DNA of 64,000 nucleotides from Flavobacteriales bacterium (GTDB lineage Bacteria; Bacteroidota; Bacteroidia; UBA10329), in assembly GCA_021739625.1 (NCBI GenBank), contig JAIPBJ010000005.1:1-64000 (forward strand). The letters are read 5' to 3'. The position numbers and the translations under genes were made by a program. Of the stretch, positions 20,917 through 48,696 are shown in pieces (position 1 is the first letter of the stretch; each line of letters opens with the position of its first letter). The notes beneath the pieces are model-generated. The model was not told where the DNA came from and searched no databases. It worked only from the letters and a program-made list of their open reading frames with translations.

Positions 20917-22338
20917 TCAAGTGTCAGTGCCACTGTCAGCAGGCAACAGGAGCCGTATTACTGAGACTGATAAAAAGAGCAGACAGGCCCCGTCAACGGT
21001 GGCCACGAACCTCACGTCACCATAGAACATGACCAGTACAGGCACAATGCTGAAGACCATTAGCCCAGCAGGCCAAAGCTCTTGTCGCAAGCGTCTGCGC
21101 AGGAGCAGGGCGAGCAGAACCAGAAGGGCGGGCAGGAACAACCACGGCCATGCTCCGATTCCGTTGTACAACTTGGCCCAAGTGATGCGCAGGCCGAGCA
21201 AGGGGTGCTCCGCGTAGAACCGCAGCAGTTTGGCGTTCTTGTCCATGGAGGGCAATCCGTTGTAGAATGATGTGCGGATGATGCGCCACTCTGGATGGAA
21301 GTCGCCATCGGTGCAATACTCGTTGTGTACATTCAGGATGTTGTAGTCGCCCAGTTGATTGGTGATGATTACGGGGTCGTTCTCCAGCGCGTGCTGATAC
21401 TGATGGAACAGCAGCAGTTCCATCACCACATCATGGCGCGGCTCACCATCAGGGCCGAAGATCTCACCGTGGGTGTTCAGTAGCAGGCCATGGGAAGCCT
21501 CGCGCAGCATGCGGCTGAACTCGGTGCGTTCTGGGATGTTGCCCTGGATTGCAGTGTTGATGTGCCAGATCCATGGGACAAGCGCAAGGGCCACACCTGA
21601 TGCAAAGGCCATGACCGGGCGGAGACCGTTCCCTACCGACCCCTTGAGAAAAGGAAGCATGTACATGAACGAGATGCCTGCGATGGCCAATGCAAAATAG
21701 CCTTTGGTGAGCACCAGAACCGCAAGGGATGCCCCGAAAACGAAGTGTTTCCAAGGTCTGTTTCCTCCCCATGCGGCCATGCCTGCCACCGAGGCCATCA
21801 TTACGAGTGTTTTGGTCAATGTCTCTGCTGTCAGATGTTGAATAGGCGCAGACTTGATCAGAAGTAGCAGAGGAACAACCGCCAATGCCATCAGCATTCC
21901 CCGTCTGCCGCGCGTCAGATATCCTGCCAGAGGGAGCGTGGCGGCCATGAGGGCCCAACACAACAGATTCAACAGATGAGCGGTTGACGGCCGCAGTCCG
22001 AAGATCCAGTATGCGGAACCGAGCACGAATGAATATACAGGCGGTTTGCTGGGAAATACGATGGGCGGGGCCTGTGCCAGTGTTCTGAAATAGGGAAGGG
22101 TGTCTGCCCGGTTGCACAGCATGTAGTCTTCCTTGGGGCCGATGAAGCCATAGATAGGAAACTGACCGTGCAATGCCAGATTGACTGCGGGAATATGGTA
22201 TTCCAACATGTCGCCCGGATACTGGTCGCAAAGGGAGAAATGCACCTGTGTGGACGCGGTGCCATGCCATGCCCTGAGCGCCCCGAAGGTGACGAGCGCT
22301 GTCAGCAACGCGATGATGGGAAGTTCAATCCTGCGCAT
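20917..22338 (-). CDS. Polytopic membrane glycosyltransferase-like protein (GT-C type)
   Basis: 473 aa from ATG 22338 (MRRIELPIIALLTALVTFG), overlapping the upstream gene by 14 bp; residues before it are read from the upstream gene's sequence. It has about ten membrane helices. After helix 1 comes a long loop with FSLCDQYPGDMLEYHIPAVNLALHG, where the Asp/Glu residues lie where GT-C enzymes keep the catalytic acid. A soluble segment (HGEIFGPDGEPRHD) follows the middle helices. It closes the operon headed by the Gfo/Idh/MocA gene at 26374. It probably adds a sugar to a lipid-linked or surface acceptor; donor and acceptor unknown. Confidence 0.72.
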   Translation of the reverse strand: MRRIELPIIALLTALVTFGALRAWHGTASTQVHFSLCDQYPGDMLEYHIPAVNLALHGQFPIYGFIGPKEDYMLCNRADTLPYFRTLAQAPPIVFPSKPPVYSFVLGSAYWIFGLRPSTAHLLNLLCWALMAATLPLAGYLTRGRRGMLMALAVVPLLLLIKSAPIQHLTAETLTKTLVMMASVAGMAAWGGNRPWKHFVFGASLAVLVLTKGYFALAIAGISFMYMLPFLKGSVGNGLRPVMAFASGVALALVPWIWHINTAIQGNIPERTEFSRMLREASHGLLLNTHGEIFGPDGEPRHDVVMELLLFHQYQHALENDPVIITNQLGDYNILNVHNEYCTDGDFHPEWRIIRTSFYNGLPSMDKNAKLLRFYAEHPLLGLRITWAKLYNGIGAWPWLFLPALLVLLALLLRRRLRQELWPAGLMVFSIVPVLVMFYGDVRFVATVDGACLLFLSVSVIRLLLPADSGTDT

Positions 22339-23554
22339 TGCCGGCAGTTGAAAGTGACTGTTGGAGCACGTCAGCCCAGTACATATTGCCTTTGGAATTG
22401 TGATGCCCGTCAAGCGGCCAGAACAGGGTATCAGGGTCGAGAAGGCCATTCGCCTTGTCATTGTGCATGATGCTGAACAGGTCGATGGTCTCCAGATGAT
22501 CCACATCCTGAAGACCAGTGGCCAACGCTTTCAACGCGAATGCATCGGTCTTGAGTTCGTTGGACAATGGGTGCAGAACCACAGCGATTACGAATCCGTG
22601 CTGTTTGGCCAATGGCACATACTGCTCCCGAATGCACTGCTCGATAAGGGAAAGTGCTCTTGCCTCTTCCTTTCTCCACGCTGCATCAGTCATCAGAAAA
22701 TGATTGAGACCCAGCACACCGTGCGCAAAGGCCCTGAATATGAACGATGCCCCATAGAGGGGGTCGAACCAGGGCGCAGACCGCCCACGCAGGTCGGCCC
22801 CGCCCGCGAACCGCTCGGATCCGCCATGGACGATGACATCGGAAATGGACGTGGCGTTGATGGCCAGTATCACCATGTCGGGCGTGCACTGCTGCATTGT
22901 TTTTTCGAGAATGATGAGGCCATCGAAAAGGTCGCGGCCGCTTATTCCGCCATTGACATAGACCGTGGGCACGCTTATTTGCTGCGCCAATAAGGCCAAC
23001 CAGCAGGAATCTTCAGGCGCACCGATACCTTCTGTGAAGGAAGCGCCAAGACCTACTATGACACGGTCTTCCTTGGAACAATCAGGCTCTGGGCCTTTCA
23101 TTCCCAGTGAATTGTACTGATATGAATAGGCGTATTCGGACGTACGGTAATCCACAATGCGGTCGGGCCATTTCACCAATCGCTCATAAAGCCCCCGATC
23201 GGTGAAGTGTTTGTTGAGAAAGTTCTGCATGCTCCAACGCGGATAGGGCGAAGTGTAGAAGAATCCGCCCGAACGCTCATTATAGCTCTGGTGATGTTTC
23301 AGCCCATAGCGCAATACCAGCTCGGCCGCAAACAGACAGACCACCACAGACACCATCATCAGCGTGAGACCCAACCTTCTCTCACGTTCATGCACCAGAA
23401 GGGTCAAAGTTCCCAGAGCGGCCATCAGCAGTGCTCCGTAGAGAATGATTGTGCTCAGGATGGAGAACATGCCGTAGGCGGCCAACAGCACATTTGCAGC
23501 AACAACAGCTGCTACGAGCACTATGAGCGGATATTTCCAGAGGCGTGAATCCAT
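22325..23554 (-). CDS. Membrane-anchored SGNH/GDSL-family hydrolase
   Basis: 409 aa. Three N-terminal hydrophobic helices (residues ~8-90), then an extracytoplasmic SGNH fold. Block I reads IVGLGASFTEG (nucleophile Ser; GAS replaces the usual GDS). Block II Gly is in VNGGISGRD and block III Asn in LAINATS. Block V Asp/His is in DGHHNSKGNMYWAD. The same DGHHN/DTHHN-SxG ending occurs in the SGNH protein at 33123. Family members are esterases or O-acyl-modifying enzymes of surface polysaccharides, which fits the neighbouring transferases. It lies 26 bp downstream of another SGNH gene. Confidence 0.8.
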   Translation of the reverse strand: MDSRLWKYPLIVLVAAVVAANVLLAAYGMFSILSTIILYGALLMAALGTLTLLVHERERRLGLTLMMVSVVVCLFAAELVLRYGLKHHQSYNERSGGFFYTSPYPRWSMQNFLNKHFTDRGLYERLVKWPDRIVDYRTSEYAYSYQYNSLGMKGPEPDCSKEDRVIVGLGASFTEGIGAPEDSCWLALLAQQISVPTVYVNGGISGRDLFDGLIILEKTMQQCTPDMVILAINATSISDVIVHGGSERFAGGADLRGRSAPWFDPLYGASFIFRAFAHGVLGLNHFLMTDAAWRKEEARALSLIEQCIREQYVPLAKQHGFVIAVVLHPLSNELKTDAFALKALATGLQDVDHLETIDLFSIMHNDKANGLLDPDTLFWPLDGHHNSKGNMYWADVLQQSLSTAGNAQD

Positions 23555-23580
23555 GGGTCTGGTGTGCCTTCAGTACTCAT

Positions 23581-24681
23581 TCAAGGCACGGAGGTGCTGT
23601 CGCGACACTCACCTTGGGCACGAAGGTGCTCTGCCAGATGCGTTGATACGATCTCGGCCACCTTGGCCGACCCTGCCTTGGAGAAATGCACGTGATCGTA
23701 AAAGTATTCCATCCGTTTGGGCATTTCGCCTGCGAGGTCGATGGCGAATGTTCCCGTCTCATCGGCCACCCGAAGTGTCACCTCGTTGAACAGCGTCAGC
23801 GCGCGGTCGAACAGTATTCCGTTCTCGGCCTCGCTCACCTTGATATGACCCATATAGGTGTGCAAAGCAGGTTCCGTCAGGTCGCCAAGCGGGGTCGGCT
23901 GGGTGATGAGCACCGGCTCAGCACCGGTCTTTCTGCAAGTGGCGATGAAATAACGCAGTCGTTGCGAATATCCTTCCAATTGCTGGGCGGTGATGCGGCC
24001 GACCACTTGCTGCATGGCGTTTTCGGCCAGCACCAGCGTGTCAGCATGGAGTGGGTCCATGTGGAAATGCCGGAATCCCTTTCCCACAGACCTGCGATAG
24101 TTGGCAAGATTGACCAACAGGTTGTAAACTTCGGAATGATGGAGCAGCGGTTTGGCGGTTCGTCCTTCCACTATCCCAATAAACTGTGGATAGGTGAGGC
24201 CCTCCTGTCCCATTTCATTTCTGCCCGCCAGCAGCAGCACCATGTCGGGACGGGTGGCTGCGGCAACATGATTGAGCATCACGGTGCAGCCCAAGGTCGA
24301 TAGGCCATCGATGCCGGCATTGTTCACCCATGTGGCGGTGCAACAGCCATCGAGAATGGTGGAGACCATGGCAGGCCAGTCTGCACCTTCGCTAAGTAGG
24401 CGACAGCCGGTTGTGCTTCCACCTATGGCAATGATACGGAGCTTGGAGAAGGCGTCCTGCGTCAGGTCAGGGCCCCTTAGCCCCATGTTGTTGTGCCGAT
24501 ACACCACTACGGTGTCGGTGCCGGGAATCCTGGGATTTGGGGTCAACGTGACACGGTCCTTGAGCAGACGGATCTCATTGCCCCTTATGCTGAACGGGAA
24601 TGGTGTCCAGACTTGGAGTACAGCCTCCAGCACCAGAAGTGCAAAGACAAGTCCCAGAAGCAGTGCCAACAGGTTTTTCAT
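23581..24681 (-). CDS. SGNH/GDSL-family hydrolase with N-terminal membrane anchor
   Basis: 366 aa from ATG 24681 (MKNLLALLLGLVFALLVLEAVL), overlapping the upstream GT2 stop codon (ATGA). One signal-anchor helix is followed by an SGNH domain. Block I is IIAIGGSTTGCRLL (Ser nucleophile), block III is LLLAGRNEMGQEG (Asn), and block V is DHVHFSKAGSAKVAEI (Asp and His). All catalytic residues are present, and the GRNE/DHVHF pattern differs from the other two SGNH proteins here, so they are not recent duplicates. Likely extracytoplasmic deacylation or acyl transfer on a glycan. Confidence 0.82.
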   Translation of the reverse strand: MKNLLALLLGLVFALLVLEAVLQVWTPFPFSIRGNEIRLLKDRVTLTPNPRIPGTDTVVVYRHNNMGLRGPDLTQDAFSKLRIIAIGGSTTGCRLLSEGADWPAMVSTILDGCCTATWVNNAGIDGLSTLGCTVMLNHVAAATRPDMVLLLAGRNEMGQEGLTYPQFIGIVEGRTAKPLLHHSEVYNLLVNLANYRRSVGKGFRHFHMDPLHADTLVLAENAMQQVVGRITAQQLEGYSQRLRYFIATCRKTGAEPVLITQPTPLGDLTEPALHTYMGHIKVSEAENGILFDRALTLFNEVTLRVADETGTFAIDLAGEMPKRMEYFYDHVHFSKAGSAKVAEIVSTHLAEHLRAQGECRDSTSVP

Positions 24682-25370
24682 CAAAGCTTGAAAGTAGTGC
24701 ATATCTGCCAAAGTCGGTACGTCTCACCTATTGCCATCCGCAGGGTGCGCCAGTTTCCTCCCTTGGCATTTCCATAGTCGCGTTGCAGATAGGAGGTGGG
24801 TATCTCGAGCGGATACACGTGGCACTTTGCCAATTTGGCTGTGATCTCGGTCTCGATGAGCGAACTGTGCAGCTTTGGGCGGGTCATTTCCAGATGCTCT
24901 CTGCGGTACACCTTCACCCAGTTCACATCGCGCAGAAAAATGCCGAGCACATGCTGGTTGAAGGCACGGTTGAGCCACGTCAGGGTTCTGCGATAAATGT
25001 TGTAACCGGTCTCCTCACGGTAATACGCGATGAACCGGTCGGTACCGAAAGGGGTGAGTTCCAGCAGGTCGGTGATACGGAACTGACCATCGCCCGGAAT
25101 GGCGCATACATAGTCGAGCCGCGCTTCCTGATACCCTGTGCGCAACGCTTCGCCAATCCCAAGATTGACGGGGTGGTGAATAGTCCGTACATGCCTGTTG
25201 TTGGCGCACAGCCGATCGCACAGCTCGCCTGTCCCGTCCGTGCTGCCATCATTCACCAGAATGACCTCATATTGCTCCGCGATCCCGTCCATCACCGTCA
25301 GCACATCTGCTACCACCCGTTGCAGGTTGCCCACCTCATTGAAACAGAAGATGATGATGGAGAACCTCAC
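24681..25370 (-). CDS. GT2 family glycosyltransferase, DPM-like
   Basis: 229 aa, starting with GTG at 25370 that overlaps the upstream stop (GTGA), a typical coupled start. Motifs: FSIIIFCFNEVGNL, VILVNDGSTDGTGEL, NLGIGEALRTGY and CAIPGDGQFRITDL (GDGQ in place of DxD). There are no membrane helices. The fold is that of polyprenyl-phosphate or nucleotide-sugar GT2 enzymes. GDGQ at the metal site is common in the DPM-like 'undecaprenyl-phosphate hexose' group. It lies between a dehydrogenase and two SGNH enzymes in one operon. Confidence 0.85.
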   Translation of the reverse strand: MRFSIIIFCFNEVGNLQRVVADVLTVMDGIAEQYEVILVNDGSTDGTGELCDRLCANNRHVRTIHHPVNLGIGEALRTGYQEARLDYVCAIPGDGQFRITDLLELTPFGTDRFIAYYREETGYNIYRRTLTWLNRAFNQHVLGIFLRDVNWVKVYRREHLEMTRPKLHSSLIETEITAKLAKCHVYPLEIPTSYLQRDYGNAKGGNWRTLRMAIGETYRLWQICTTFKL

Positions 25371-26374
25371 GCCAGCGGGATGACGGCACCGCCCTGTGCG
25401 AGCGATTCCTGTGCCTTTTCGAGTATGCGCACCACCCTCAGCGCATTGCGCCCGTCCGACAACGGCCGTTTGCCTGTTCGGACTGATGAGACGAATTCAT
25501 CCATCACGTTCTTGAGCGGTTCGCGCAATGAATGCTTTGGAATGGTGATGTCACCGAGCCGATAGTCCGTGAGGCGCACCTTGTTGCCATTCTCCTCGGC
25601 CTTCTGCCGCAGGTCGTACTCGTAGATCACAAGCTTGTTGGTGGGCTCAATGTCATCATAGATGATCATGCGCTTCTCGCCCCCGATGATCATCTTGCGG
25701 ATCTTGACCGGGCTGGCCCACGAGCTGTTGATGTGGACCAGCAGACCCGAGGCGTAACTGAGAAAGAGGTAGGTGAGGTCCTCAGCGCCATGGTCGGGGT
25801 TCACCCTGCCGATGGCCCGCACACTGATGGGCTGCTCGTCAATGAGATGCAGTATGATGGACAGGTCATGGCATGCAAGGTCCCACAGCACATTGGTATC
25901 GTGCTGATAGATGCCCAGATTGATGCGGGTGGCATCGATGTAGTTGACCCGCCCCACAAATTCCGGGGTGATGTAGGATCTGAGCTGCTGCACGGCCGGG
26001 TTGTACATGAAGATGTGATCGACCATCAGGGTCAGATTCCGCTGTTCTGCCAATGCGATAAGCTCCAGGGCATGCACTTCCTTGAGCACGAAAGGCTTTT
26101 CTACCAATACGTGCTTTCCTGCTTCCAGCAAGCGTTTCACCATCGGGTAGTGGACGGACGAAGGGGTGGCGCAGACCACGGCCTCTATCTCCGCGTGCGA
26201 CACCACCTCATCAAACGAATTCAATGCAACGACCTGAGGATATTTGCCCAGTGCGGCCTCCATTTTTGCTGGCGAGAGGTCGAACAGATGCACACGACCG
26301 ATGGCATCGGTCTCCACCATCGTCCTCAGCAGGTTGCTTCCCCAATAGCCATGTCCGATAAGGCAGATGTTCAT
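25367..26374 (-). CDS. Gfo/Idh/MocA-family NAD(P)-dependent sugar dehydrogenase
   Basis: 335 aa from ATG 26374, where the Rossmann fold begins (MNICLIGHGYWGSNLLRTM, with GHGYWG as the dinucleotide loop). The EKPFVL motif near residue 92 (HVLVEKPFVLK) and DLACHDLSIILHL near 175 are family hallmarks. It probably oxidises or reduces a nucleotide-sugar ring hydroxyl, as in UDP-hexuronic acid 3-dehydrogenases of O-antigen clusters. No aminotransferase or acetyltransferase follows, so a 3-amino sugar is not supported here. It heads the leftward operon to 20917 and is divergent from the Wzt-type gene. Confidence 0.88.
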   Translation of the reverse strand: MNICLIGHGYWGSNLLRTMVETDAIGRVHLFDLSPAKMEAALGKYPQVVALNSFDEVVSHAEIEAVVCATPSSVHYPMVKRLLEAGKHVLVEKPFVLKEVHALELIALAEQRNLTLMVDHIFMYNPAVQQLRSYITPEFVGRVNYIDATRINLGIYQHDTNVLWDLACHDLSIILHLIDEQPISVRAIGRVNPDHGAEDLTYLFLSYASGLLVHINSSWASPVKIRKMIIGGEKRMIIYDDIEPTNKLVIYEYDLRQKAEENGNKVRLTDYRLGDITIPKHSLREPLKNVMDEFVSSVRTGKRPLSDGRNALRVVRILEKAQESLAQGGAVIPLA

Positions 26375-26422
26375 GGTAGGGTCACGTTTTGCAGCAAGTC
26401 GGAATCCGGCACCTGCCTGCTG

Positions 26423-26452
26423 CAAAAATGAACATTCGCTGTGAGGTGACAA
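26423..26452 (-). promoter_or_regulatory. Possible promoter of the Gfo/Idh/MocA operon
   Basis: On the minus strand, TTG (26450-26452), a 19-bp spacer and CATTTTTG (26423-26430), one mismatch from TAnnTTTG. It leaves a leader of about 48 nt. Confidence 0.35.
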
Positions 26453-26596
26453 CAGATGCTCTGCTGGGTCGATGAGGTGGACGGAATCAGCAGCCTGCAC
26501 ATGCCCATCATTCAGGCAATGGCCAAGGACTCCCTCTCTTTTGCCCATCTTTGTGCTCCGATGGTTGATGCAGAGACGAACAGGGCTGGGAGGGTC

Positions 26597-27808
26597 ATGG
26601 AATTGGCCCTTGAGGTGAGGGGCCTGAGCAAATCATACCGTGTGAACACCGATGAGGGCGAGAAGACCATTGATGCCCTGAAGGACATCGACCTGACCGT
26701 GGAGCGTGGGAGCTGCCTCGGCATTGTGGGGCGAAACGGTTGCGGAAAGACCACCCTGCTCAGGATCATCGGTGGCCTGGTGAAACCGACCACCGGATCG
26801 GTCACCGTTCATGGGTCGCTGCTGGCCATTACCGATGTGGGCGGAGGCTTCGTACCCGACCTCACAGGACTGGAGAACATCCGTCTCAACGCAAGGATGT
26901 ACGGTCTGAGTGAGGCAGAGACAGACCGCATTCTCCCGCTGATTGCACAGTTCAGCGAGATAGAGGATTTCTTCCATGTGCCGGTCAAAAGCTATTCGCA
27001 GGGCATGTTCCTCCGTCTGGCATTCAGCACCATGATCCATCTTCCAGTGGACATCGTGCTGCTGGACGAGGTGCTGGCAGTGGGCGATGTGGCGTTCAGG
27101 GCCAAGTGCTTCAACAAGCTCCGAGAACTTTCGGCCGATGGTCTCACGGTGCTCATGGTGTCTCACACCTATGACGAGATAGCGGCCTTCTGCAATAGGT
27201 GTCTGGTCATGGATCATGGAATGGTGGTGGTACTTGGCCCGCCCGATGAGACTTTCCCGTTCTATCAGACAGCAAGTCGGGACATGAGCACGGTCAATGA
27301 AAACGACACGGCCCACATCAGCGACCACTTTCATTATCTGCGACCGGACTTTGTTCAGATTGAAGCTGTTACCATAGGAGCAAAGGGTGCACCGGGAGCG
27401 CGCATATCGGTCAACAGCCCTGTTGAGATAGGTATCCAATGGAAAAAGCTGATAAAAGGACATGAGGTTGCCTTCCATCTCTCTATTGCTGATGAAATGG
27501 GAAGAGCTTCAGTTGATACCGCCAATTTTTATGGAAAACCGGCAAATGTCATCGAGCAAGGGCAGTCAGATCGGGACGGTGTTTTCATAGATACTTGCAT
27601 CATACCCGAAAAACTATTGAACACCGGAGTGTTTCGATTGAAAATCTCGGTTACCGTCTATCGAACGGTTCGCGACTATTTCACGGTGTTGGAAACAGTC
27701 AAGGACTTCACATTCATCCTTTTTGATGAGATGTCCGATGGAGACCGGCTGTTCTGGACATACTCGCCCGCGCCCATCCGCACACCGTTCCACTGGAACC
27801 GTAGTTAG
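26597..27808 (+). CDS. ABC transporter ATPase of polysaccharide export (Wzt-type, with C-terminal domain)
   Basis: 403 aa from ATG 26597, preceded by GGGAGG; ATG 26561 is an in-frame alternative. Residues 1-235 form the nucleotide-binding domain: Walker A GRNGCGKTT, the degenerate signature YSQGM typical of Wzt/TagH, Walker B IVLLDEVLAVGD, and H-loop MVSHTYD. Residues ~255-403 match in size and beta content the Wzt C-terminal domain, which in E. coli O-antigen systems reads a terminal modification of the glycan before export. The permease partner is not adjacent; the only candidate in the window is at 46882. This points to ABC-dependent export of a glycan or glycolipid with a modified end. 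Confidence 0.9.
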   Translation: MELALEVRGLSKSYRVNTDEGEKTIDALKDIDLTVERGSCLGIVGRNGCGKTTLLRIIGGLVKPTTGSVTVHGSLLAITDVGGGFVPDLTGLENIRLNARMYGLSEAETDRILPLIAQFSEIEDFFHVPVKSYSQGMFLRLAFSTMIHLPVDIVLLDEVLAVGDVAFRAKCFNKLRELSADGLTVLMVSHTYDEIAAFCNRCLVMDHGMVVVLGPPDETFPFYQTASRDMSTVNENDTAHISDHFHYLRPDFVQIEAVTIGAKGAPGARISVNSPVEIGIQWKKLIKGHEVAFHLSIADEMGRASVDTANFYGKPANVIEQGQSDRDGVFIDTCIIPEKLLNTGVFRLKISVTVYRTVRDYFTVLETVKDFTFILFDEMSDGDRLFWTYSPAPIRTPFHWNRS

Positions 27809-27893
27809 TTGAGACCATTTCTTATCGAACAGGTACATTTGCCTTTCCCCGATCGCGCACGAGTTGGTGCCCCCTAAACCAATTGTTGAGAAC

Positions 27894-39077: not shown

Positions 39078-39087
39078 GGGCCATCAG

Positions 39088-39930: not shown

Positions 39931-40962
39931 ATGAACCTGAGTCAGCTCATACCGAAGGCCCGTTGGCAGGATGTCATCGGGCTTGGCATCAGTGGTTTGT
40001 TGTTCTGGCTCACTTTCCGCAACACGTCCTCAGAGATATGGAACTTGAGGCTCACCCCCGGTCAGTTGTGCCTGCTGTCGGTCTCGATGCTCAGCTTTGT
40101 GCTCACCACGGCCGTGCAGGCCTATCGGATGCGATGGTTCATCGCCAATGATGGCCGACCGATGTCCAGCTCAAGCGCATTCAGCTCGCTCTACATCGGG
40201 GGCTTCTACAATGCCCTGCTGCCCGGCAATCTTGGTGAACTCGTCAAGGGCCGCCATTTTGCCATGAAGAACCGGATCCATTTCAGTACGGCAATGGCCT
40301 GCTGGGTGGCTGAGAAGTTCGCTGACGGCATAACGATGGCGGTATTGGCCACAGTTCTGCTTCTGTCCCCATTAGAAAGTACTCCCTTGCGCTGGGTCAT
40401 CCTGATACCGGTGGTGGGAGCTGCGGTCAGCATCGTGTTTCTGACTGTAGCTCTGGCCTCACCGGGCCTGTTGAAGCAGTTGTTCAGGCTCATCCCATCA
40501 AAGCGGTTGGCGGTGTTCATGCTACGGTCATTCCTGATCTTCAAGGGCCGGCTGTTCGGCAAGGACTGGAAGATCCCCGCTGTTTTCGTCTCCGGGGCTT
40601 TGCTGATGGGTGTTCTCAATGCCGTCAACTTCGGTCTGAACCTTCATGTGGCGGGAGTCCCGTCAGAGCTCATCACTCCGGGCAACCTGACGGTGTTTGT
40701 CCTGTTGGTTGCGGTGGTGATGTTCGTGCCCTCTGCACCCTCATCGGTCGGGGTGATCCACTTCGGCATCTATTCTGCCCTGGTCGTCATGGCCGAAATT
40801 GAGGGATTCGCCATCACTCAGGAACTGAAGGACACGTTCGTCTTCACCTCGGTGCTGTTCCACCTCTGCTATTTCATCCCGGAGACCCTTCTTGGAGCCT
40901 TTTTTGTCATCAAGGAACGGAGGGTCATCTTCTCGATGCGAAGCACCGAACCCTTGGGATAA
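39931..40962 (+). CDS. Flippase-like membrane protein (lysylphosphatidylglycerol synthase TM-domain family)
   Basis: 343 aa with eight or so membrane helices and no soluble enzyme domain. Motifs of the LPG_synthase_TM/UPF0104 family are present: FYNALLPGNLGELVKG and VPSAPSSVGVIHFG. Stand-alone members occur in glycan and hopanoid clusters (AglD- and HpnL-like) and are thought to move or modify lipids. As last gene of the UbiA operon it may translocate the prenylated product. That role is inferred from context. Confidence 0.85.
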   Translation: MNLSQLIPKARWQDVIGLGISGLLFWLTFRNTSSEIWNLRLTPGQLCLLSVSMLSFVLTTAVQAYRMRWFIANDGRPMSSSSAFSSLYIGGFYNALLPGNLGELVKGRHFAMKNRIHFSTAMACWVAEKFADGITMAVLATVLLLSPLESTPLRWVILIPVVGAAVSIVFLTVALASPGLLKQLFRLIPSKRLAVFMLRSFLIFKGRLFGKDWKIPAVFVSGALLMGVLNAVNFGLNLHVAGVPSELITPGNLTVFVLLVAVVMFVPSAPSSVGVIHFGIYSALVVMAEIEGFAITQELKDTFVFTSVLFHLCYFIPETLLGAFFVIKERRVIFSMRSTEPLG

Positions 40963-40994: not shown

Positions 40995-41849
40995 TCATGT
41001 GCGTTCACCTGTGCCAAGCCACGTCCTCAGTTTGGAGAGCAGCCCCTTGCCATCTTCGCTCCGGTCTGCAAGGAACGCTGGCATTTCGACCTCGGGCTGC
41101 GCAACCTCCTTCAACTTGGTCAATATCTCAGGCCCCTTCTGAATGTCACCTGTCATGAAGAACTCCACACTGCTCTCATAGACTTCCACTTTACCATCAC
41201 GGCCGAAATAGTAGAACATCTTCGCTTCATCGGGGATGATGCCGAACACGGCCGCCACGCGAAGCTCATCGGTGAGATTAGGATCTGAGGCATGGAACAG
41301 GCGGTGGTCGTAGATGAGTGCCTGACCCGCTTTCATGTGCAGCGGCACCATCCGCTTCCATATCTCTTCCTGCACCTGCTGAAATGCATCAGGAATGCTC
41401 GGGCCTCTGAAATTCCGCACCCACCCATGGCTGCCCGGCATCACACGGATGGCCCCGTTCCGCCCATTCAGATCCACAAGCGGCACCCAGATGTTGAAAG
41501 AGCGGTACTTCTCCTCATCCACAATGTTCCAGTCCTGATGCGGGTGAAGGCGGTCCTTCTGGGTGTTCGATTTCACCACGAACGACCCTCCCAATGCACG
41601 GCATCCGATGAAATACCGTGATATGGGCCTTTCGAATGCCTGTTTTATCCCGTCATTCATCCTGTTGCGGAATGGAATGTCGGCAGAGTGGGCGGTGGCA
41701 TAGAAGCCGTTGACCCCTTGCGGATGGTTTTCGAGGAAAAAAGCCTTTAGTTCCCGCACCGTATCCGCATCGAGGAACGGCACGACCACATAACCGTCCT
41801 TCAGAAGGGTGCTGTCCAGTTGGTCGTCACTCAGAATCCGTTGCACCAT
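40995..41849 (-). CDS. PhyH-family Fe(II)/2-oxoglutarate dioxygenase
   Basis: 284 aa. N-terminal element KDGYVVVPFLDADTV; iron ligands HQD 104-106 (HPHQDWNIVDEE) and His 186 (LFHASDPN), with Arg 197. NIWVPLVDLNGRNGAI gives the core strand. The C-terminal ~50 residues after the fold are charged and unlike the other copies. It is the last of five PhyH genes in one leftward run, 2 bp after the upstream stop. Complete active site, so probably functional. Substrate unknown. Confidence 0.88.
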   Translation of the reverse strand: MVQRILSDDQLDSTLLKDGYVVVPFLDADTVRELKAFFLENHPQGVNGFYATAHSADIPFRNRMNDGIKQAFERPISRYFIGCRALGGSFVVKSNTQKDRLHPHQDWNIVDEEKYRSFNIWVPLVDLNGRNGAIRVMPGSHGWVRNFRGPSIPDAFQQVQEEIWKRMVPLHMKAGQALIYDHRLFHASDPNLTDELRVAAVFGIIPDEAKMFYYFGRDGKVEVYESSVEFFMTGDIQKGPEILTKLKEVAQPEVEMPAFLADRSEDGKGLLSKLRTWLGTGERT

Positions 41850-41851
41850 TT

Positions 41852-42805
41852 TCAGTTGCTGAAAAATGAAGTGAGCCTTTTCAGGAACGAAGCACGTGCC
41901 ACCGGTGGTGCGAAATTGGTCTCAACAGCATCGTCCTCCATCGGCCCGTTCATCGCAAATCCTGCCCCTTCCTTCATTTCACGCAGTTTTTTCCGCAGTT
42001 CTTCCCTTTCAAGAATGGGAGAGACATAAGGGATGTGCCCGATCGGCCTGCCCATCGCGGGGCGCTGCATGATGGCCTCGGAAAAATTCTCGAAGCGGAT
42101 GAGGAAGTCATCGTCCATCTCGCGCACCTCCAGCTCCTCGCGGTCGGGTTCCCTGTAATGGAAATACATCTGCGCGCCTGCCGATTTCACCCCTGCGGTG
42201 ATGGCCTTGCGCACATTGCCGCTGCGGTTGGGCGGGCTGTAATGGATTACGCTCTGGTTGAGGATGACGGCCGTACCCGCCTTCACCTCCATCGGCACCA
42301 GTTCCTGCACCACCAGATCGTCATTGCCCGAGAAGAAGAACGGTACGGTAGGGGCGCGCACCACATTCAAATGGTCGAAATGACTGCCGGGCAATATCAT
42401 CAGCGCTCCGTTCTCCAGCGTCACATCGCAGAGTGGCACCCAGCAGTTGAGCGCCACGTGCTGCGTCTCGTCCACGATGGTCCAGTCCTGATGTGGGGCC
42501 AGTGCGCTGTTCTCGCCCGGCACCTTGTAGAGGAATGCCCCACCAAAGGGCGCGTAGTCCGTGAAAAGTTCCGCATACCTGCGGCTGAACACCTCCACTA
42601 TGGCATCGCTCGCCCGCTTCTTGTAGGAGAGATCGTTGCTGTAGCTGCCGCTGAAGAACCCGCTGCCGCCCAGTTCGGGGTGCAGTTCATCGAAGAGCGC
42701 ATCGAGCCGCGCCACCTCCTCCGCGCTCAGGAACGGCTGCACAAGGAAGCCCTGCCTGTCGAAGGTCTGCTGGTGGGAGTCGGAGAGGAAGATGCGTTTC
42801 GCCAT
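41852..42805 (-). CDS. PhyH-family Fe(II)/2-oxoglutarate dioxygenase
   Basis: 317 aa. FDRQGFLVQPFLSAEE at the N-terminus; ligands HQD 105-107 (APHQDWTIVDET), His 188 (VIHYSPPN) and Arg 199. A tail of about 70 residues (CVxP-poor, charged, ending FLKRLTSFFSN) resembles the tails of the two next PhyH proteins upstream (FFQRLKELVS and FSRLKKVFA), a shared short amphipathic C-terminus that may dock to a partner or the membrane. Its ATG overlaps the stop of the upstream gene (ATGA). Confidence 0.88.
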   Translation of the reverse strand: MAKRIFLSDSHQQTFDRQGFLVQPFLSAEEVARLDALFDELHPELGGSGFFSGSYSNDLSYKKRASDAIVEVFSRRYAELFTDYAPFGGAFLYKVPGENSALAPHQDWTIVDETQHVALNCWVPLCDVTLENGALMILPGSHFDHLNVVRAPTVPFFFSGNDDLVVQELVPMEVKAGTAVILNQSVIHYSPPNRSGNVRKAITAGVKSAGAQMYFHYREPDREELEVREMDDDFLIRFENFSEAIMQRPAMGRPIGHIPYVSPILEREELRKKLREMKEGAGFAMNGPMEDDAVETNFAPPVARASFLKRLTSFFSN

Positions 42806-43770
42806 CAGGAAACCAGTTCTTTCAAACGCTGGAAGAATCCCCGCCTCGGCTCAATTGCTACAGGCGTTTCCTCTGGGGCCATCCCCACTTTGGGCGCGGC
42901 CTCCTCAATGAGCCTGCGGGCATTGGTGCGGCCGAATTCGCGGTCCATGAACTCTACGGTCAGCTCGGGGAATTCGTAGTCCATCAGGCCGAGGGATTGG
43001 CCCACCTTGGGGCGGTCGTGGATGTTGCTGCCGAACTGCTCGAAGTCGGTCATAAAGGTGTCGCTCTGCGCGAAGAGTTCCACCTTGTCGGGGTGCGCAT
43101 CGGTGAAATAGCAGGTGCGGAACTCCGCGTCTTTGTGCGTGAAATAGGTGTTGGTGACGATGCGTGGACTGTCAGAGTAGTTGGGCGGTGAGAAATGGAT
43201 GATGCTTTGGTCGAAGAACACGGCCTGGCCCGCCTTCACCATCACGGGGTGGAGGTAATCTATCATCCCGTCCATCATGTTGCCGAACATGTCGCGTATG
43301 GAACTTCCGCGATAAGTGGGGTGGATGCGGTGGCTCTTGGGAAGCACGAAGAGGCCCCCGTTCTGCACCGTCAGATCGACCAGCGGCACCCAGATGTTGA
43401 TGCCCGTGAAGCGGCTCTCATCCACCAGTGTCATGTCCTGATGCACGCACATGCCGCTCTCGGCATCCGCCCCCTTGACGATGAAACTGCCGTTCATCAC
43501 CTTCACATCCATACAGTATTCGGAGATGGAACGTTGGCACATGCGCTGAATCTCGTGGTCGGCCGTCTGCCGATATTCCTTGTCGGGCGAGAAGGTGCTG
43601 GGGAAGAAGCCTTTCGCGTCCTGCGGGTGCAGGCGGTGGTAAAGTGCGGTGAGTTCCGCTATCTCCTCTGGCGTGTAGAACGGCAGGATGATGTAGCCAT
43701 CGCGCTCGAACCGCTCCTGATGCTCCTCGGAACGGAACACGCGCTTCATCTTCTCTGGGAACTGGAACAT
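42805..43770 (-). CDS. PhyH-family Fe(II)/2-oxoglutarate dioxygenase
   Basis: 321 aa from ATG 43770 (ATG 43749, at MKRVFRSEEH, is an alternative start). ERDGYIILPFYTPEEI; ligands HQD 110-112 (CVHQDMTLVDES), His 192 (IIHFSPPN) and Arg 203. The Trp usually after HQD is Met here. The tail ends in RGFFQRLKELVS. It is separated from the double-PhyH gene by 100 bp that hold a short repeat, the longest gap within the five-gene PhyH run. Confidence 0.88.
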   Translation of the reverse strand: MFQFPEKMKRVFRSEEHQERFERDGYIILPFYTPEEIAELTALYHRLHPQDAKGFFPSTFSPDKEYRQTADHEIQRMCQRSISEYCMDVKVMNGSFIVKGADAESGMCVHQDMTLVDESRFTGINIWVPLVDLTVQNGGLFVLPKSHRIHPTYRGSSIRDMFGNMMDGMIDYLHPVMVKAGQAVFFDQSIIHFSPPNYSDSPRIVTNTYFTHKDAEFRTCYFTDAHPDKVELFAQSDTFMTDFEQFGSNIHDRPKVGQSLGLMDYEFPELTVEFMDREFGRTNARRLIEEAAPKVGMAPEETPVAIEPRRGFFQRLKELVS

Positions 43771-43870: not shown

Positions 43871-45787
43871 TTAAACGCCTACGAGCCTCCGTTTCACCTC
43901 AGTCACGATATTCTTCGGGCTGTATTTCTCAAAGAAATTGCGGTCATCCACCCACACCCATTCCTTTTCGGGTTCGGGAGCAGTTTCTGGCATCGGTTCC
44001 TGTTTCGCTATCGGCTGTTCCTGCTGGGCCGCATTGATATTTCCGAAGGTAGCCGCCAGCTTCTCGCACATCGGCACGTTGTATTCATTCCCTGCCGCTT
44101 TGATGATGGCCACGAGTTCCTCGCTGGTGTAGTCGGTGAACTCGTAAGGCACTTCCACGGGTTTGCCATAGCCCTCGATCAGTTCGCCACGGTCGTACAT
44201 TTTCGACAGGGAGGCGTTCTCATACTTCAGGAAGAAATCGGGATCCACGTTGTAGCGCAGCATGGTCTTGAACTGGCCATCGGGCTTCATGTAATAGTGT
44301 ACGAGCTGCGCGTCCTTCTGCGTGATGCCCACGCCAGCGGCCAGACGCACGAAGTCTGTGGTGTTGGGCGGTGAGGCGTGGAATGTGCGGTTGTCGAACA
44401 TCAGAAGTTCACCGGCCTTCACATTCAGCGTGTGCAGGTAGGGGAATATGCTGAACATGTGGTCGCTGAGCGGCACAGGGGTCTGCGGGCTGGGCGATGG
44501 TCGCTTGTTCCGCATGAAACGGTGGCTGCCACGTATCACGCCCAGACCCCCATTCTCAAGGTCGGTGTCCACCAATGCGATCCAGCAGGTGATGGAGCAG
44601 AACCCGTCCTCCTCGCGGTCCACGAAACTCCAGTCCTGATGTGCGGGCACCACGCCTTTGGGGTTCGGTTCCTTCACCACAAAGCTGCTTACGAACGGCT
44701 TGAAGTCCTTCAGATGCTCCTCCATCCTTGGCAGGGCCACGCCCCAGATCTTTTCGCGCACCCTGCGGCACAGTTCCTTGTCGGCCTGATCCATGCTCAC
44801 ATGGAAACCGTAACCTTTCACGTCTGTGAGGTTCAGGGATTCATAATAGCTTTTCAGGTCGGTCACCTCGTCCGCGTTCAGCAGCGGGAAGACCGCAAAG
44901 CCTTCCTTCTCAAAAAAGATCTGCTTCTCGGCATCCCTGAACAGCGGAATCATCTTGTAGCTCATCATGGCCTGTTGTGTCTGGTAGTTATGCATGGCAC
45001 GCTGATACTCGCCCAGCGTCACGGCCTTCGGGGTGTAGGCGAAGGTATCGGTCTTTGTGCCGATGCTGGGCCGTTGGCCTATCTGCGTGTTGTATTCCTG
45101 AAAGAAATGGTCGGGCACAGCGAATTGCTCCACCTGACCCTCTTCGTTCCTGTGGTAGAAAAGCAGTCCGGCCTCTTCAGCGATGAGTCCGTAGGTCACT
45201 GCGATGCGGGGTTCGGCAGAGGTGTTGGGCGGTGAGGCGTGCAGCAGTGCCTGGTTGAAGATGATGGCCTCGCCCGCCTTCAGTGGCACGGTGCGGAGGT
45301 CGGGGCGCATCTCCGCGTGGATGTCGCGGAAAGGGTCGGGAAGTGTGGGCGACCGCAGCGCATCGCTGAAACGGTGACTGCCCGCAATGACCTGCACGGC
45401 CCCGTTCGCCTCGTCCGTGTCCTGCAAAGCGCACCAGATCGTGACCGAGCAGAACCGTGTTTCATCGACCATCGTCCAATCCTGATGGATGGGCATTTCG
45501 CCCTGCGGCCCGGGAGATTTGCTGAGAAAGCAACTTCCAAGTTTCCTTATCGGATTGAAAAGCCCCGAAACCTTGGGGCCGAACACCTCCTCCACGCGGT
45601 CGTTCACGCGCTGTTTCTCCTCCGTGTCCGTGCTGAAACTGCTGCTGTGGAAGCCTGCTGGAACCGTTGGGAGGGTTTCATGAAAGACCGCCCGCAGTGC
45701 GGCCACCTCCGCCTCCGACAGGAACGGCACGGTCACGTAGCCGTCAAGGGCGAAACGGGAGTTGAGGACGGGAGATTGGAAGAGCAT
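43871..45787 (-). CDS. Two-domain PhyH-family dioxygenase (tandem catalytic domains)
   Basis: 638 aa from ATG 45787, which overlaps the upstream stop (ATGA); a TTG one codon earlier is less likely. Domain 1: HQD 101-103 (IHQDWTMVDE), His 183 (LLHASPPN), Arg 194. Domain 2: HQD 383-385 (AHQDWSFVDRE), His 470 (TFHASPPN), Arg 481. Both sets of ligands are complete. After domain 2 an acidic, Gln/Pro-rich linker (~590-615) precedes a basic C-terminus (KNIVTEVKRRLVGV). This is the second double-domain PhyH gene in the cluster. Its domains differ from those at 31154, so the fusions may have arisen separately. Confidence 0.88.
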   Translation of the reverse strand: MLFQSPVLNSRFALDGYVTVPFLSEAEVAALRAVFHETLPTVPAGFHSSSFSTDTEEKQRVNDRVEEVFGPKVSGLFNPIRKLGSCFLSKSPGPQGEMPIHQDWTMVDETRFCSVTIWCALQDTDEANGAVQVIAGSHRFSDALRSPTLPDPFRDIHAEMRPDLRTVPLKAGEAIIFNQALLHASPPNTSAEPRIAVTYGLIAEEAGLLFYHRNEEGQVEQFAVPDHFFQEYNTQIGQRPSIGTKTDTFAYTPKAVTLGEYQRAMHNYQTQQAMMSYKMIPLFRDAEKQIFFEKEGFAVFPLLNADEVTDLKSYYESLNLTDVKGYGFHVSMDQADKELCRRVREKIWGVALPRMEEHLKDFKPFVSSFVVKEPNPKGVVPAHQDWSFVDREEDGFCSITCWIALVDTDLENGGLGVIRGSHRFMRNKRPSPSPQTPVPLSDHMFSIFPYLHTLNVKAGELLMFDNRTFHASPPNTTDFVRLAAGVGITQKDAQLVHYYMKPDGQFKTMLRYNVDPDFFLKYENASLSKMYDRGELIEGYGKPVEVPYEFTDYTSEELVAIIKAAGNEYNVPMCEKLAATFGNINAAQQEQPIAKQEPMPETAPEPEKEWVWVDDRNFFEKYSPKNIVTEVKRRLVGV

Positions 45788-46719
45788 CAAGCAAAAACTT
45801 TCTTCAACCTTGAAAAAATCCCGCCCGCTTCGGCTGTGGCTTCGGGCAGCTCATCGAACCTCGGACCTTTGAGCCGCTGGATGAACCCGGCCTCGTCAAT
45901 GAAGTGCGTGGTATGCGGAATGGTGCGCAACAGCTTGGCCCCTTCAGGCTTCTTCCAAGGGTTGAACTGCATGTAGAAGTCCACATCCACCTCCAGCACA
46001 TTCACGCGGTCCTGACTCACGGCCGGATCCATGTGATAGTGTATGCTGGGCATCTCCGAAGGGATGCAGATGAGCTGTATGGCGAGGCGCAGTCCCTCGG
46101 TGCGGTTCGGTGCCGAGTAATGCACGATGCTGTCGTCCAGGATCACGCAGTCGCCAGCCTTGGTCTCCAGCGGCACCAGATACTTGTCGATGATGGTCTG
46201 CCGGATGTTGTCCAACTCCCATGGAATCATGGGGCCGCGCAGCTCCCCGAATCGTTTGTGGCTGCCAGGGACGACCTGTAGTGTGCCGTTATCGACCGTG
46301 CCATCGACCAGCGGGCACCAGATGCTGACGGTGAAACACTTGCGCTCATCGGCAAAGGCCCAGTTCTCGTGCAGTGGCACCTCTCCGTCATTGGTCTGCT
46401 TGCGGATATAGTTGGCAATCACGGGCCGATAATCTGCCAGCAGCTCGTCCATCCGCTTCCTGAACCGCGCGGTGATGATGTCGAAAACGCGCTGCTTGTA
46501 CTCCACGCTCTTGTCGATGAAAGTGAAATCGTAGGTCACCAGACGGCTGTTCTCCACGCCTGTCTCTTCGGTGGTGATCTGCCCTCCGCTTTCGGGCAGG
46601 GTGTCGAAGAAGAGCTGTTTGAGCTCCTCCGCCTCGGCAGGGGAGATGAACGGGACGCGCACATAGCCGTCACGCACGAACTGGTCGTTGAGGGCGGGGT
46701 CGTTGAGGACTTTTCTCAT
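45787..46719 (-). CDS. PhyH-family protein with altered iron site (HEN instead of HxD)
   Basis: 310 aa. The fold is clear: VRDGYVRVPFISPAEA at the N-terminus, VSIWCPLVDGTVDNGTL core strand, distal His 200 (IVHYSAPN) and Arg 211. Where all other PhyH domains in the window read H-x-D, this one reads His117-Glu118-Asn119 (codon AAC at 46363-46365), so the Asp ligand is replaced by Asn. That could give a two-His iron site, use of another ligand, or loss of catalysis with a structural role. In known PhyH-like halogenases the same Asp is Ala or Gly, not Asn. It is the first gene of the PhyH run and shares the short amphipathic tail. Confidence 0.87.
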   Translation of the reverse strand: MRKVLNDPALNDQFVRDGYVRVPFISPAEAEELKQLFFDTLPESGGQITTEETGVENSRLVTYDFTFIDKSVEYKQRVFDIITARFRKRMDELLADYRPVIANYIRKQTNDGEVPLHENWAFADERKCFTVSIWCPLVDGTVDNGTLQVVPGSHKRFGELRGPMIPWELDNIRQTIIDKYLVPLETKAGDCVILDDSIVHYSAPNRTEGLRLAIQLICIPSEMPSIHYHMDPAVSQDRVNVLEVDVDFYMQFNPWKKPEGAKLLRTIPHTTHFIDEAGFIQRLKGPRFDELPEATAEAGGIFSRLKKVFA

Positions 46720-46728
46720 GGTCAGGGT

Positions 46729-46816: not shown

Positions 46817-46881
46817 CCTACGCCAAGGCATCGGCTAAGGTAATGCCTCGCAACGCGGAACAGAAAATGACCGGGGTCAGC

Positions 46882-47703
46882 TCAGAGGTAATCGATCATC
46901 TCGCCTTCGCGCTCCTTGAAGAAGTAGATGCCCGAAAGGGTGGTGGCAAGGCTGAGCAACGCACTCCATCCAATGGCCACGCCATTCAGCACATCATCGA
47001 AGAGTGCCCATCGGTAAAGATTGAGCACGCCTGTCATGGGATTGAGGTCGGCCAGCCAAGCATACTGTCCGGGGATGAGGGTCACGGGAAAGAACACGGG
47101 CGTGAGCCAGATGCCCAGACCGATAAGGCTCGGAACGATGTGGTTCAGATCCCAATAGCGGATGCTGGCCACATTGAGCCAGAGGATGATGCCCGAGGCC
47201 AACAGCACATTGAGCAGCACCGCCAGAGGCAGCAGGGCGAACTGAAGCGGAGGAAGGATGCCAAAGACCGCCATCAGCACCAACAGGATCGCAAACGTCA
47301 CAGCCCATTCGGTCAGCGCATTGGCAATGGACAGCAACGGAAGGATGAGCAGTGGGAAATTCATTTTCCGGACAAGGTTGGCATTGCCTTTCACGATGCT
47401 CATCCCATTGTTCACGATGCTGGAAAAAAGGCTCCACGACAGATGTCCCGAGAGGGCGAAGAGCAGATAGGGATAGTTGCCGGCCCTGATGTTCATCAGA
47501 TAGGAGAACAGCACCGAGAACACGCCCACCACCACCAGCGGACGGATGACCCCCCAGAGCAGTCCGAGCCGGGTCTGCACATACTGCTGCTTGATGTCGC
47601 GCACATACAGGGCCTGAAGCACATGGCGATGGTGCCATGTCTGGGCCAGATAGGCCCAATATGCCGGAGCTTTGGCGGTGATGGTCTTGGTGGGAACAGG
47701 CAT
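46882..47703 (-). CDS. ABC-2 type polysaccharide export permease (Wzm/TagG-type)
   Basis: 273 aa from ATG 47703; a GTG at 47712 falls inside the predicted -7 element. An N-terminal amphipathic segment (YVRDIKQQYVQTRLGLLWGVIRP) is characteristic of Wzm/TagG. Six membrane helices follow; GNANLVRKMNFPLLILP and WLTPVFFPVTLIPG match the family. It should form the channel with the Wzt-type ATPase at 26597, as no other ATPase is present. Separation of the pair by ~19 kb is unusual, since wzm and wzt normally abut. Confidence 0.9.
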   Translation of the reverse strand: MPVPTKTITAKAPAYWAYLAQTWHHRHVLQALYVRDIKQQYVQTRLGLLWGVIRPLVVVGVFSVLFSYLMNIRAGNYPYLLFALSGHLSWSLFSSIVNNGMSIVKGNANLVRKMNFPLLILPLLSIANALTEWAVTFAILLVLMAVFGILPPLQFALLPLAVLLNVLLASGIILWLNVASIRYWDLNHIVPSLIGLGIWLTPVFFPVTLIPGQYAWLADLNPMTGVLNLYRWALFDDVLNGVAIGWSALLSLATTLSGIYFFKEREGEMIDYL

Positions 47704-47711
47704 GGGCTGCA

Positions 47712-47719
47712 CAAATGTA
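47712..47719 (-). promoter_or_regulatory. -7 element of the permease gene
   Basis: TACATTTG on the minus strand (full TAnnTTTG match), 8 bp before the ATG at 47703, implying a very short or absent leader. It helps to reject the GTG start at 47712. Confidence 0.4.
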
Positions 47720-47763
47720 ACGGCTGCTTCGGCCGGCCGGCCATGTATGGAAGACCTGCCGGT

Positions 47764-48696
47764 TCAGACCTGTCTGTTGCCTCCGAATACCCGCTCCAGA
47801 TATCCATGGTCCACCTTTCCGCTGCGTTCCATTCGCTCAAACTTCTTGCGCAGCCTTGCCTGAACCACATCGGTGTGCTTCTCGCTGAGGCGGAACAGGC
47901 GCAGCATGAAATTGGGGAAGTAACGTTTGAGGCGGTACATGAACCGGGCATCCCAAGGCAGCACGATATGGAACCTTCCCCTTGCCGCCTGATGGAGCAC
48001 CCTTGCCGCCACCTCTTCGGGTGTGAGGGTGCTGGTGCCGAATATGAGCCGCGACATCTCTATGTGTTCGGCCTTCCCTCGGCTGTGCTGCATCACGGCC
48101 GTTTTGAAGAAGGTGGGCATGACCACCGACACATGTACGCCATGGTGATGCAGTTCGGCACTCATGGTCTCGGAGAGCGACAGCACGGCCGCCTTGCTCA
48201 CATTGTAGGCCCCCATGCGCGGCAGACTGGTGAATGCGGCCGCACTGGCGATGTTGATGATGGTGCCCGACCGCTGCGCCCGCATCGTGGGAATGAACAG
48301 GGCCGAACCATAGATGACCCCGTGCAGATTGATGCCCAACAGCCAGTCCCAGTTCTCGAGGCCGTAGTCCTCCACGTAGCCCGCATCGCCCACCCCGGCA
48401 TTGTTCACCAACAGGTCGATGCCGCCATGTCCGGTCAGGAAATTCTCCGCCACCTTCCGATAGGCGTCCTTGTCGGCCACGTCCAACTGATGGATGTCTG
48501 CTGTGCCTCCAAGTCGGTGAACGCCCTCTGCGCTCAGGTTCAGTTTTTCTGCACTGATGTCCGCCATGCCGATGACCCATCCTTCGCGGGCCAACTCCTC
48601 GCACAGTGCAAGCCCAAGACCCGAGGCGGCACCGGTGATGAAGGCCCGCTTCAGCGGGTAGGAGGCGGAAAGTCGGGCTGCGGGGGTCTGTTCCAT
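47764..48696 (-). CDS. Short-chain dehydrogenase/reductase (SDR)
   Basis: 310 aa from ATG 48696. Cofactor motif TGAASGLG at about residues 22-29, NNAG near 97, Ser in IINIASAAAF and catalytic YNVSK. Size and the ~60-residue basic C-terminal extension (YRLKRYFPNFMLRLFR) match classical SDRs of the lipid or steroid type. It oxidises or reduces an alcohol/ketone with NAD(P). It lies 60 bp upstream of the permease on the same strand, so it may belong to the cluster, though it has its own -7 element. Confidence 0.85.
   Translation of the reverse strand: MEQTPAARLSASYPLKRAFITGAASGLGLALCEELAREGWVIGMADISAEKLNLSAEGVHRLGGTADIHQLDVADKDAYRKVAENFLTGHGGIDLLVNNAGVGDAGYVEDYGLENWDWLLGINLHGVIYGSALFIPTMRAQRSGTIINIASAAAFTSLPRMGAYNVSKAAVLSLSETMSAELHHHGVHVSVVMPTFFKTAVMQHSRGKAEHIEMSRLIFGTSTLTPEEVAARVLHQAARGRFHIVLPWDARFMYRLKRYFPNFMLRLFRLSEKHTDVVQARLRKKFERMERSGKVDHGYLERVFGGNRQV

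Follow-up and report, generated by a model that had tools for sequence, protein, structure and literature searches.

A 64,000-nucleotide stretch of a Flavobacteriales genome (contig JAIPBJ010000005.1 of assembly GCA_021739625.1, positions 1 to 64,000 of the forward strand; hereafter the window) carries a locus that joins a known type of export system, the O-antigen-like type that depends on an ATP-binding cassette (ABC) transporter, to a new conserved oxygenase module. This core starts with the permease gene wzm and continues with five genes encoding six PhyH domains, in the order Wzm-PhyH7-PhyH6-PhyH5-PhyH4-PhyH3, as an operon-like run on the minus strand between 47712 and 40995. We consider it probable, though well short of certain, that this is a variable Wzm/Wzt-type surface-glycan locus whose oxygenase module oxidises a lipid-linked glycan before export, the substrate being one that we infer. 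The core genes and the gene of the exporter ATPase, Wzt, are the following.

46882..47712, minus strand: Wzm-type ABC-2 permease, first core gene (PF01061, E 1.4e-17; NCBIfam Wzm/RfbD and KpsM)
45787..46719, minus strand: PhyH7, PhyH fold with H-x-N (PF05721)
43871..45790, minus strand: PhyH6, two PhyH domains in one chain (PF05721 twice)
42805..43770, minus strand: PhyH5, core oxygenase (PF05721)
41852..42805, minus strand: PhyH4, core oxygenase, overlapping PhyH5 by 1 bp (PF05721)
40995..41849, minus strand: PhyH3, last core oxygenase (PF05721)
26594..27808 (likely start; the open reading frame (ORF) opens at 26456), plus strand: Wzt-type ATPase with a C-terminal beta-rich domain (PF00005)

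Related loci were located by alignment of PhyH5 in GTDB genomes, a search that misses loci devoid of PhyH5; almost all of them come from metagenome-assembled genomes (MAGs), the record titles of which are unreliable. The search returned 27 loci, all but one titled Bacteroidota. As L045, L063 and L067 coincide in length and position with contigs of genomes G008, G001 and G007, and as L050 and L051 belong to one genome, these represent about 25 genomes. The sole locus with another title ('Verrucomicrobia', L056) is confined to a 10-kb contig, which could have been mis-binned. Counts of same-strand neighbours at the PhyH5 loci reproduced the order of the window: Wzm and PhyH7 adjoin in 13 cases, PhyH7 and PhyH6 in 18, PhyH6 and PhyH5 in 24, PhyH5 and PhyH4 in 23, and PhyH4 and PhyH3 in 16. 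The median gene spacing in the core is 2 bp, PhyH5 and PhyH4 are fused as one ORF in G001 and G002, and Wzm adjoins a core gene at 15 of the 20 informative loci. In a quick tree, slots 3, 4, 5, 6a, 6b and 7 (6a and 6b being the first and second domains of PhyH6) each form one clade with a support of 99-100, except for 6a with just 60; between slots, the catalytic parts share ∼27-37% identity in the window set. Correlation of distance matrices is r 0.81-0.95 among the five PhyH genes, compared to 0.46-0.69 between these and Wzm, and the Wzm proteins linked to the core are not monophyletic, as supported branches force at least four changes. A single origin of core-linked Wzm is thus unsupported, and the block appears to have stayed beside different Wzm lineages; the window Wzm is 75% identical to that of G008. 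These comparisons indicate that the five PhyH genes move as a block, whose adjacency to wzm has been either retained or re-established with wzm genes of different lineages. The association is what selection for joint function would be expected to leave, of which it is not proof.

A trivial explanation for such a neighbourhood would be that PhyH genes piled up in a recombination hot spot and have nothing to do with the exporter. The site is hypervariable, extra PhyH genes occur in many arrangements and PhyH copies are also found elsewhere, as this explanation predicts; however, the fixed order, the near-zero spacing, the six slot clades, the co-inheritance and the C-terminal tails described below, all shared across several Bacteroidota groups, make it very improbable. 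Chance association is unlikely for the core and possible for some of the surrounding genes. In the genome from which the window derives (G000; 3.69 Mb, 179 contigs), nine of the ten PhyH matches lie inside 17.3 kb of the window, a concentration far beyond chance. These are nine domains spread over seven genes, all above the cut-off in the Pfam profile search. The core is rare: PhyH5 was found in 2 of 396 genomes of an even phylum sample at E 1e-40, the second match being weaker, and PhyH7 in 10 of 295 genomes of the class. Among the nine genomes of the genus, PhyH clusters are present in G000, G001, G002, G007 and G008, a smaller one in G006, and they are nearly absent from G003, G004 and G005. 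A solitary PhyH5 orthologue (61%), with the rest of the core not nearby, was seen at positions 10001-10975 of L055 and could reveal a separate role for PhyH5.

The metal triad and the 2-oxoglutarate (2OG) arginine are invariant in ortholog alignments of slots 3, 4, 5 and 6b (triad of PhyH3, 19/19; triad and Arg of PhyH4, 26/26, and of the second PhyH6 domain, 23/23), and the triad of the first PhyH6 domain is intact except in one or two rows. Slots 3, 4, 5, 6a and 6b are therefore predicted to hold the Fe(II)/2OG site of PhyH enzymes. PhyH7 is not a standard H-x-D...H oxygenase: H-x-N stands in place of H-x-D in 22 of 22 sequences and was again invariant in an alignment of 21 rows, the distal His and the Arg being retained (in the window, H117 and N119, codons 46363-46371). 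PhyH7 may be a pseudo-oxygenase, a partner subunit or an unusual catalyst. Its AlphaFold2 model (predicted local distance difference test score, pLDDT, 87) gave SnoK and SnoN as the top Foldseek folds in the PDB, with HygX and EvdO2 also listed, at modest TM-scores. The matches include entry 7vbq, which we take to be TlxI-TlxJ; in TlxI-TlxJ, a natural partner subunit has a damaged triad.

The nearest solved relative of PhyH5 is EvdO2 (E 3e-7 with the single sequence, 1e-8 with a profile) and that of PhyH6 is SnoK. EvdO2 and the related orthosomycin oxygenase HygX act on assembled oligosaccharides, and SnoK and SnoN, the nogalamycin carbocyclase and epimerase, on the sugar moiety of a glycosylated metabolite, so that these enzymes all modify the oligosaccharides or sugar parts of antibiotics. 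This origin leads to another explanation, in which the product of the core is a secondary metabolite, diffusible or lipid-linked, such as an orthosomycin-like oligosaccharide antibiotic or a polyhydroxylated lipid, that Wzm/Wzt exports; radical SAM and WelO5-like enzymes, also encoded at the locus, are typical of such pathways. We regard it as quite unlikely, as neither a polyketide synthase, a non-ribosomal peptide synthetase nor a peptide precursor was found among the scanned genes, Wzt aligns over its full length with O-antigen Wzt, and the locus resembles a serotype-type variable site with conserved flanks. The weak similarity to EvdO2 and SnoK does not by itself fix the reaction that the core enzymes would catalyse. 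EvdO2 and HygX resemble the core in their PhyH fold and use of 2OG; however, they come from actinobacterial antibiotic clusters and share little identity with the core proteins, and orthoester or methylenedioxy formation is not indicated here beyond this sequence similarity. Likewise, SnoK and SnoN, the top PDB relatives of PhyH6 and PhyH7, are single enzymes of an antibiotic pathway without a link to Wzm/Wzt.

The core oxygenases share a further character: they end in a short basic amphipathic tail of type A or type B, behind a poorly conserved linker. The PhyH5 tail, GFFQRLKELVS, exemplifies type A, and SFWEIYTPKNILREMKYKITG type B; PhyH4 ends in SFLKRLTSFFSN, PhyH3 in GLLSKLRTWLG, and PhyH6 in a type-B tail at 43877-43942. 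The tails are interchangeable, since the same slot may have type A in one taxon and type B in another; a near-identical type-B tail is found on four different oxygenases in L064, L065 and L068. The tail patterns match 83 of 114 core proteins compared to 3 of 127 background ORFs, a difference that is partly circular since the patterns were derived from core proteins. When a 24-residue type-B tail was compared with nine whole genomes of the genus, ten matches were obtained at E < 0.02, all of them in core PhyH proteins and in no other protein. The tails might serve as a membrane tag or as a signal for a common docking partner. Encapsulation in a bacterial microcompartment was considered as their function and rejected: shell proteins (PF00936) are absent from all nine genomes of the genus, in a search with positive controls. 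A more specific proposal, which we put forward tentatively and hold to be doubtful, is that the six oxygenase domains, through their interchangeable docking tails, assemble with the H-x-N protein PhyH7 into a complex, either membrane-associated or co-docked, that would oxidise the glycan stepwise and hand it over to Wzm/Wzt.

The top PDB sequence matches of the window Wzt are the O-antigen Wzt chains of A. aeolicus. In its AlphaFold2 model (pLDDT 75.6) the C-terminal part is moderate, with gaps; Foldseek aligned the model with the full-length Wzt structures 7k2t and 8dku over 387-392 columns, C-terminal domain included, with a low TM-score and a high root-mean-square deviation that presumably come from differing domain placement. 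Wzt is thus predicted to have a C-terminal domain of the cargo-binding type. In A. aeolicus, this domain reads a chemical change at the chain end, an established export logic (PMC9445017). The core PhyH enzymes could make a terminal cap or cap sugar read by the Wzt C-terminal domain, and so control export rather than decorate the chain. The position of the core, beside wzm and upstream of wzt, the established cap recognition by Wzt in A. aeolicus (PMC9445017) and a SAM methyltransferase gene (cluster c2) just after the core in 10 loci are consistent with this explanation. We nevertheless judge it unlikely: Wzt of related loci shares 27-33% identity with the window Wzt and diverges most in its C-terminal part, whereas the core is conserved, a pattern contrary to the prediction of a single fixed cap, and six domains are many for a cap.

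The original prediction had placed the Wzt and Wzm genes on either side of the locus, and this split layout recurs in related loci. Whether relatives keep wzm and wzt without the oxygenases can be read from one chromosomal site in four genomes of the genus. In G001, G002, G004 and G005, the genes flanking wzm on one side are orthologous, with 54-84% identity (sulfotransferase-like, KAS III, GT2 and GNAT genes and one more). The order is wzm, core, wzt in G001 and G002, whereas in G004 and G005 wzt comes directly after wzm and the PhyH core is absent. Between the core-bearing and core-free states of the site, Wzm is 42-44% identical. By gene order and identity, the site shows what looks like serotype-type replacement between fixed flanks. 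The idea that relatives hold wzm and wzt only alongside the oxygenases is false, G004 and G005 being the counterexamples; what stands is that the core mostly adjoins wzm.

The 28 kb of the original prediction do not hold up as a single pathway of set composition, as only Wzm and the five PhyH genes are conserved; outside them, the comparisons point to variable cargo: Wzt, UbiA, radical SAM proteins, sugar-nucleotide enzymes, methyltransferases and extra oxygenases. In the window this cargo and the adjoining genes are:

27864..29456, plus strand: B12-binding radical SAM protein 1 (PF02310 and PF04055; CxxxCxxC at residue 246)
29490..30338, plus strand: PhyH1, variable cargo oxygenase (PF05721)
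30348..31160, minus strand: WelO5-family 2OG oxygenase (PF22814, E 1.8e-23; WelO5 PDB matches)
31154..32875, minus strand: PhyH2, two-domain variable cargo oxygenase (PF05721 twice)
33123..34340, minus strand: SGNH hydrolase with N-terminal membrane segments (PF13472)
34398..35624, minus strand: pentahaem cytochrome (five CxxCH)
35554..36990, minus strand: B12-binding radical SAM protein 2 (PF04055 and PF02310)
37283..38086, plus strand: UbiA-family prenyltransferase (PF01040)
38073..39077, plus strand: radical SAM protein (PF04055) with a SPASM/twitch-like Cys-rich end, the latter from sequence reading
39070..39879, plus strand: Cupin_8/JmjC-like oxygenase (PF13621, E 2.8e-43)
39931..40962, plus strand: flippase-like membrane protein, LPG_synthase_TM (PF03706)
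24681..25370, minus strand: GT2 glycosyltransferase (PF00535)
25367..26548, minus strand: Gfo/Idh/MocA sugar dehydrogenase (PF01408; top NCBIfam match UDP-GlcNAc 3-dehydrogenase, below cut-off)
23581..24711, minus strand: SGNH hydrolase (PF13472)
22325..23554, minus strand: probable SGNH-like membrane protein (weak NCBIfam GDSL match, E 0.005; motifs GASFTEG and DGHHN; no Pfam match)
20917..22506, minus strand: polytopic membrane protein, GT-C-like by size only (∼7 hydrophobic segments; no family match)
47764..48735, minus strand: SDR-family dehydrogenase adjoining Wzm (PF00106)
6273..10972, minus strand: outer glycosyltransferase group (PMT-like 6273-8120, GT2 8068-8790, Alg9-like 8787-10133, GT2 9977-10972)

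Most of the predicted inventory was recovered by Pfam: eleven 2OG/Fe(II) oxygenase domains (nine PhyH, the Cupin_8/JmjC-like protein and the WelO5-family protein, earlier called P4H-like), three radical SAM proteins, two of them with a B12-binding domain, and the UbiA, flippase-like, GT2, sugar dehydrogenase, Wzt and Wzm proteins; the pentahaem cytochrome was confirmed by its five CxxCH motifs. Two of three claimed SGNH hydrolases are above the Pfam cut-off, the third having the weak NCBIfam GDSL match, and the GT-C-like label of the protein at 20917-22506 is unproven. The proposed limits, 20917-48696, enclose this inventory; however, the conserved unit spans just 40995-47712, and further glycosyltransferase genes lie at 6273-10972, which may serve the same glycan.

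The cargo of related loci includes sugar enzymes (DegT aminotransferase, UDP-sugar dehydrogenase, sugar C-methyltransferase, NTP-transferase, dehydratase/epimerase) and others (sulfotransferase, GNAT, SGNH, UbiA, Asp/Arg-hydroxylase and PMT-like TPR proteins). Glycosyltransferase and sugar-nucleotide genes are thus present, GT2 and MocA in the window and the rest in related loci, and this sugar-related cargo supports a glycan as the probable product. The earlier view of a surface-glycan export locus rich in C-H oxidising enzymes agrees with these genes and with the Wzt fold match. The alternative product named with it, a prenyl glycolipid, may or may not be made; the UbiA and DprE1-like genes point more towards polyprenyl-phosphate sugar donors. 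UbiA is encoded in the Wzt loci of G000, G002, G005, G006, G007 and G008, the window protein weakly resembling decaprenyl-phosphate phosphoribosyltransferase (NCBIfam E 2.9e-6), and the LPG_synthase_TM gene adjoins that of UbiA in G008 (contig C17) too. L066 encodes at 14195-16442 a DprE1-like oxidase, scoring 188 bits where the cut-off is 500, together with an SDR protein, beside B12-radical SAM 2 and PhyH3; a DprE1 relative also lies near these two genes on contig C61 of G008 (L044, 3614-5032), and DprE1 gave no match in the window genome. A polyprenyl-phosphate pentose donor may thus be made at some loci, and is for the window a suggestion. This arrangement recalls the decaprenylphosphoryl-arabinose pathway of DprE1, DprE2 and UbiA, with UbiA in many loci and the DprE1-like and SDR genes of L066, from which it differs in that the DprE1 match is far under the equivalog cut-off and G000 has none.

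The WelO5-family protein has H143-K-D145, an H-x-D motif assigned by position only, where the halogenase has the halide-accommodating H-x-G. Halogenation was therefore rejected, and the protein is probably a hydroxylase. B12-radical SAM 2 adjoins PhyH3 in L066 and on contig C61 of G008. In the window (34398-36990), the genes of B12-radical SAM 2 and of the membrane-anchored pentahaem cytochrome overlap at the end of the former, and on contig C61 (L044, 6538-9960) this pair comes after PhyH3 within a single operon-like run. A gene for an Asp/Arg beta-hydroxylase, a further oxygenase fold, recurs near the core (L054 19707-20489, L045 15232, L049 18980, L066 19787).

Several observations weigh against oxidation of an exported glycan by the core. 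First, the core is not beside Wzm at 5 of the 20 informative loci (L046, L048, L050, L052 and L054); in G405 (and in G404, as far as its short contig shows) the core is away from wzm, another stretch grouping wzt, PhyH, WelO5-like and wzm genes. Second, the two genomes of the genus with Wzm/Wzt and no core, G004 and G005, are near-complete. Third, the window genome encodes three further Wzm homologues, so the pairing of the window Wzm with the window Wzt is drawn solely from recurrence. Fourth, the PhyH proteins resemble sugar-acting enzymes only weakly (E 1e-6 to 1e-12), and members of the PhyH family use many small-molecule substrates. The partial circularity of the tail counts belongs here as well, as does the fact that all data come from MAGs.

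The pathway that we propose for glycan oxidation would run as follows. Glycosyltransferases would assemble a lipid-linked glycan on the cytoplasmic side of the inner membrane. The five core PhyH proteins (six domains), kept together or membrane-bound via their common tails, would successively oxidise, by Fe(II)/2OG chemistry, C-H positions of a single conserved sugar unit of this glycan, be it a repeat residue, a linker or a terminal cap, with PhyH7 acting as partner subunit or non-standard catalyst. The C-terminal domain of Wzt would then bind the finished glycan for export by Wzm/Wzt, and the cargo (WelO5-like, extra PhyH, radical SAM and methyltransferase proteins, and UbiA with the flippase for a polyprenyl-phosphate sugar) would give strain-specific variants. 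Sequence comparison bears out the conserved block, the conserved metal sites, the shared tails, the exporter type and the allelic replacement; substrate, reactions, docking and the order of steps are what we infer from them.

The locus resembles ABC-transporter-dependent O-antigen loci, of the A. aeolicus and E. coli O9a type, in its Wzm and Wzt with C-terminal binding domain, its GT2, methyltransferase and sugar-nucleotide genes, and its allelic variation between conserved flanks. It differs from them in that wzm and wzt are separated by the conserved PhyH block and that oxygenases and radical SAM proteins dominate. Literature searches combining PhyH with O-antigen, polysaccharide or glycan found no such cluster described, in agreement with the original prediction; they covered open-licence papers only, and absence is not proof. 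Surface polysaccharides are normally varied via glycosyltransfer, methylation, acylation and epimerisation. If our interpretation is true, some bacteria use C-H oxidation to remodel a glycan, in its carbon skeleton or hydroxyl pattern, before exporting it; to our knowledge, such chemistry has hitherto been described mainly for antibiotics. The recurring block offers defined genes in a defined order and clear testable predictions, and the shared tails a handle on how an assembly of polysaccharide-modifying enzymes is built. The hosts are uncultured Bacteroidota, largely of environmental waters judging by record titles.

Two minor observations concern the surroundings. A plus-strand ORF at 46369-50067, which overlaps wzm and the SDR gene, was treated as spurious over wzm, with only short amidohydrolase-like matches in its last ∼115 residues. 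The flanks at 16729-20307 and 50388-62026 encode SprB-repeat proteins, CotH proteins and proteins with a Por secretion tail, cargo for type IX secretion in a Bacteroidota host.

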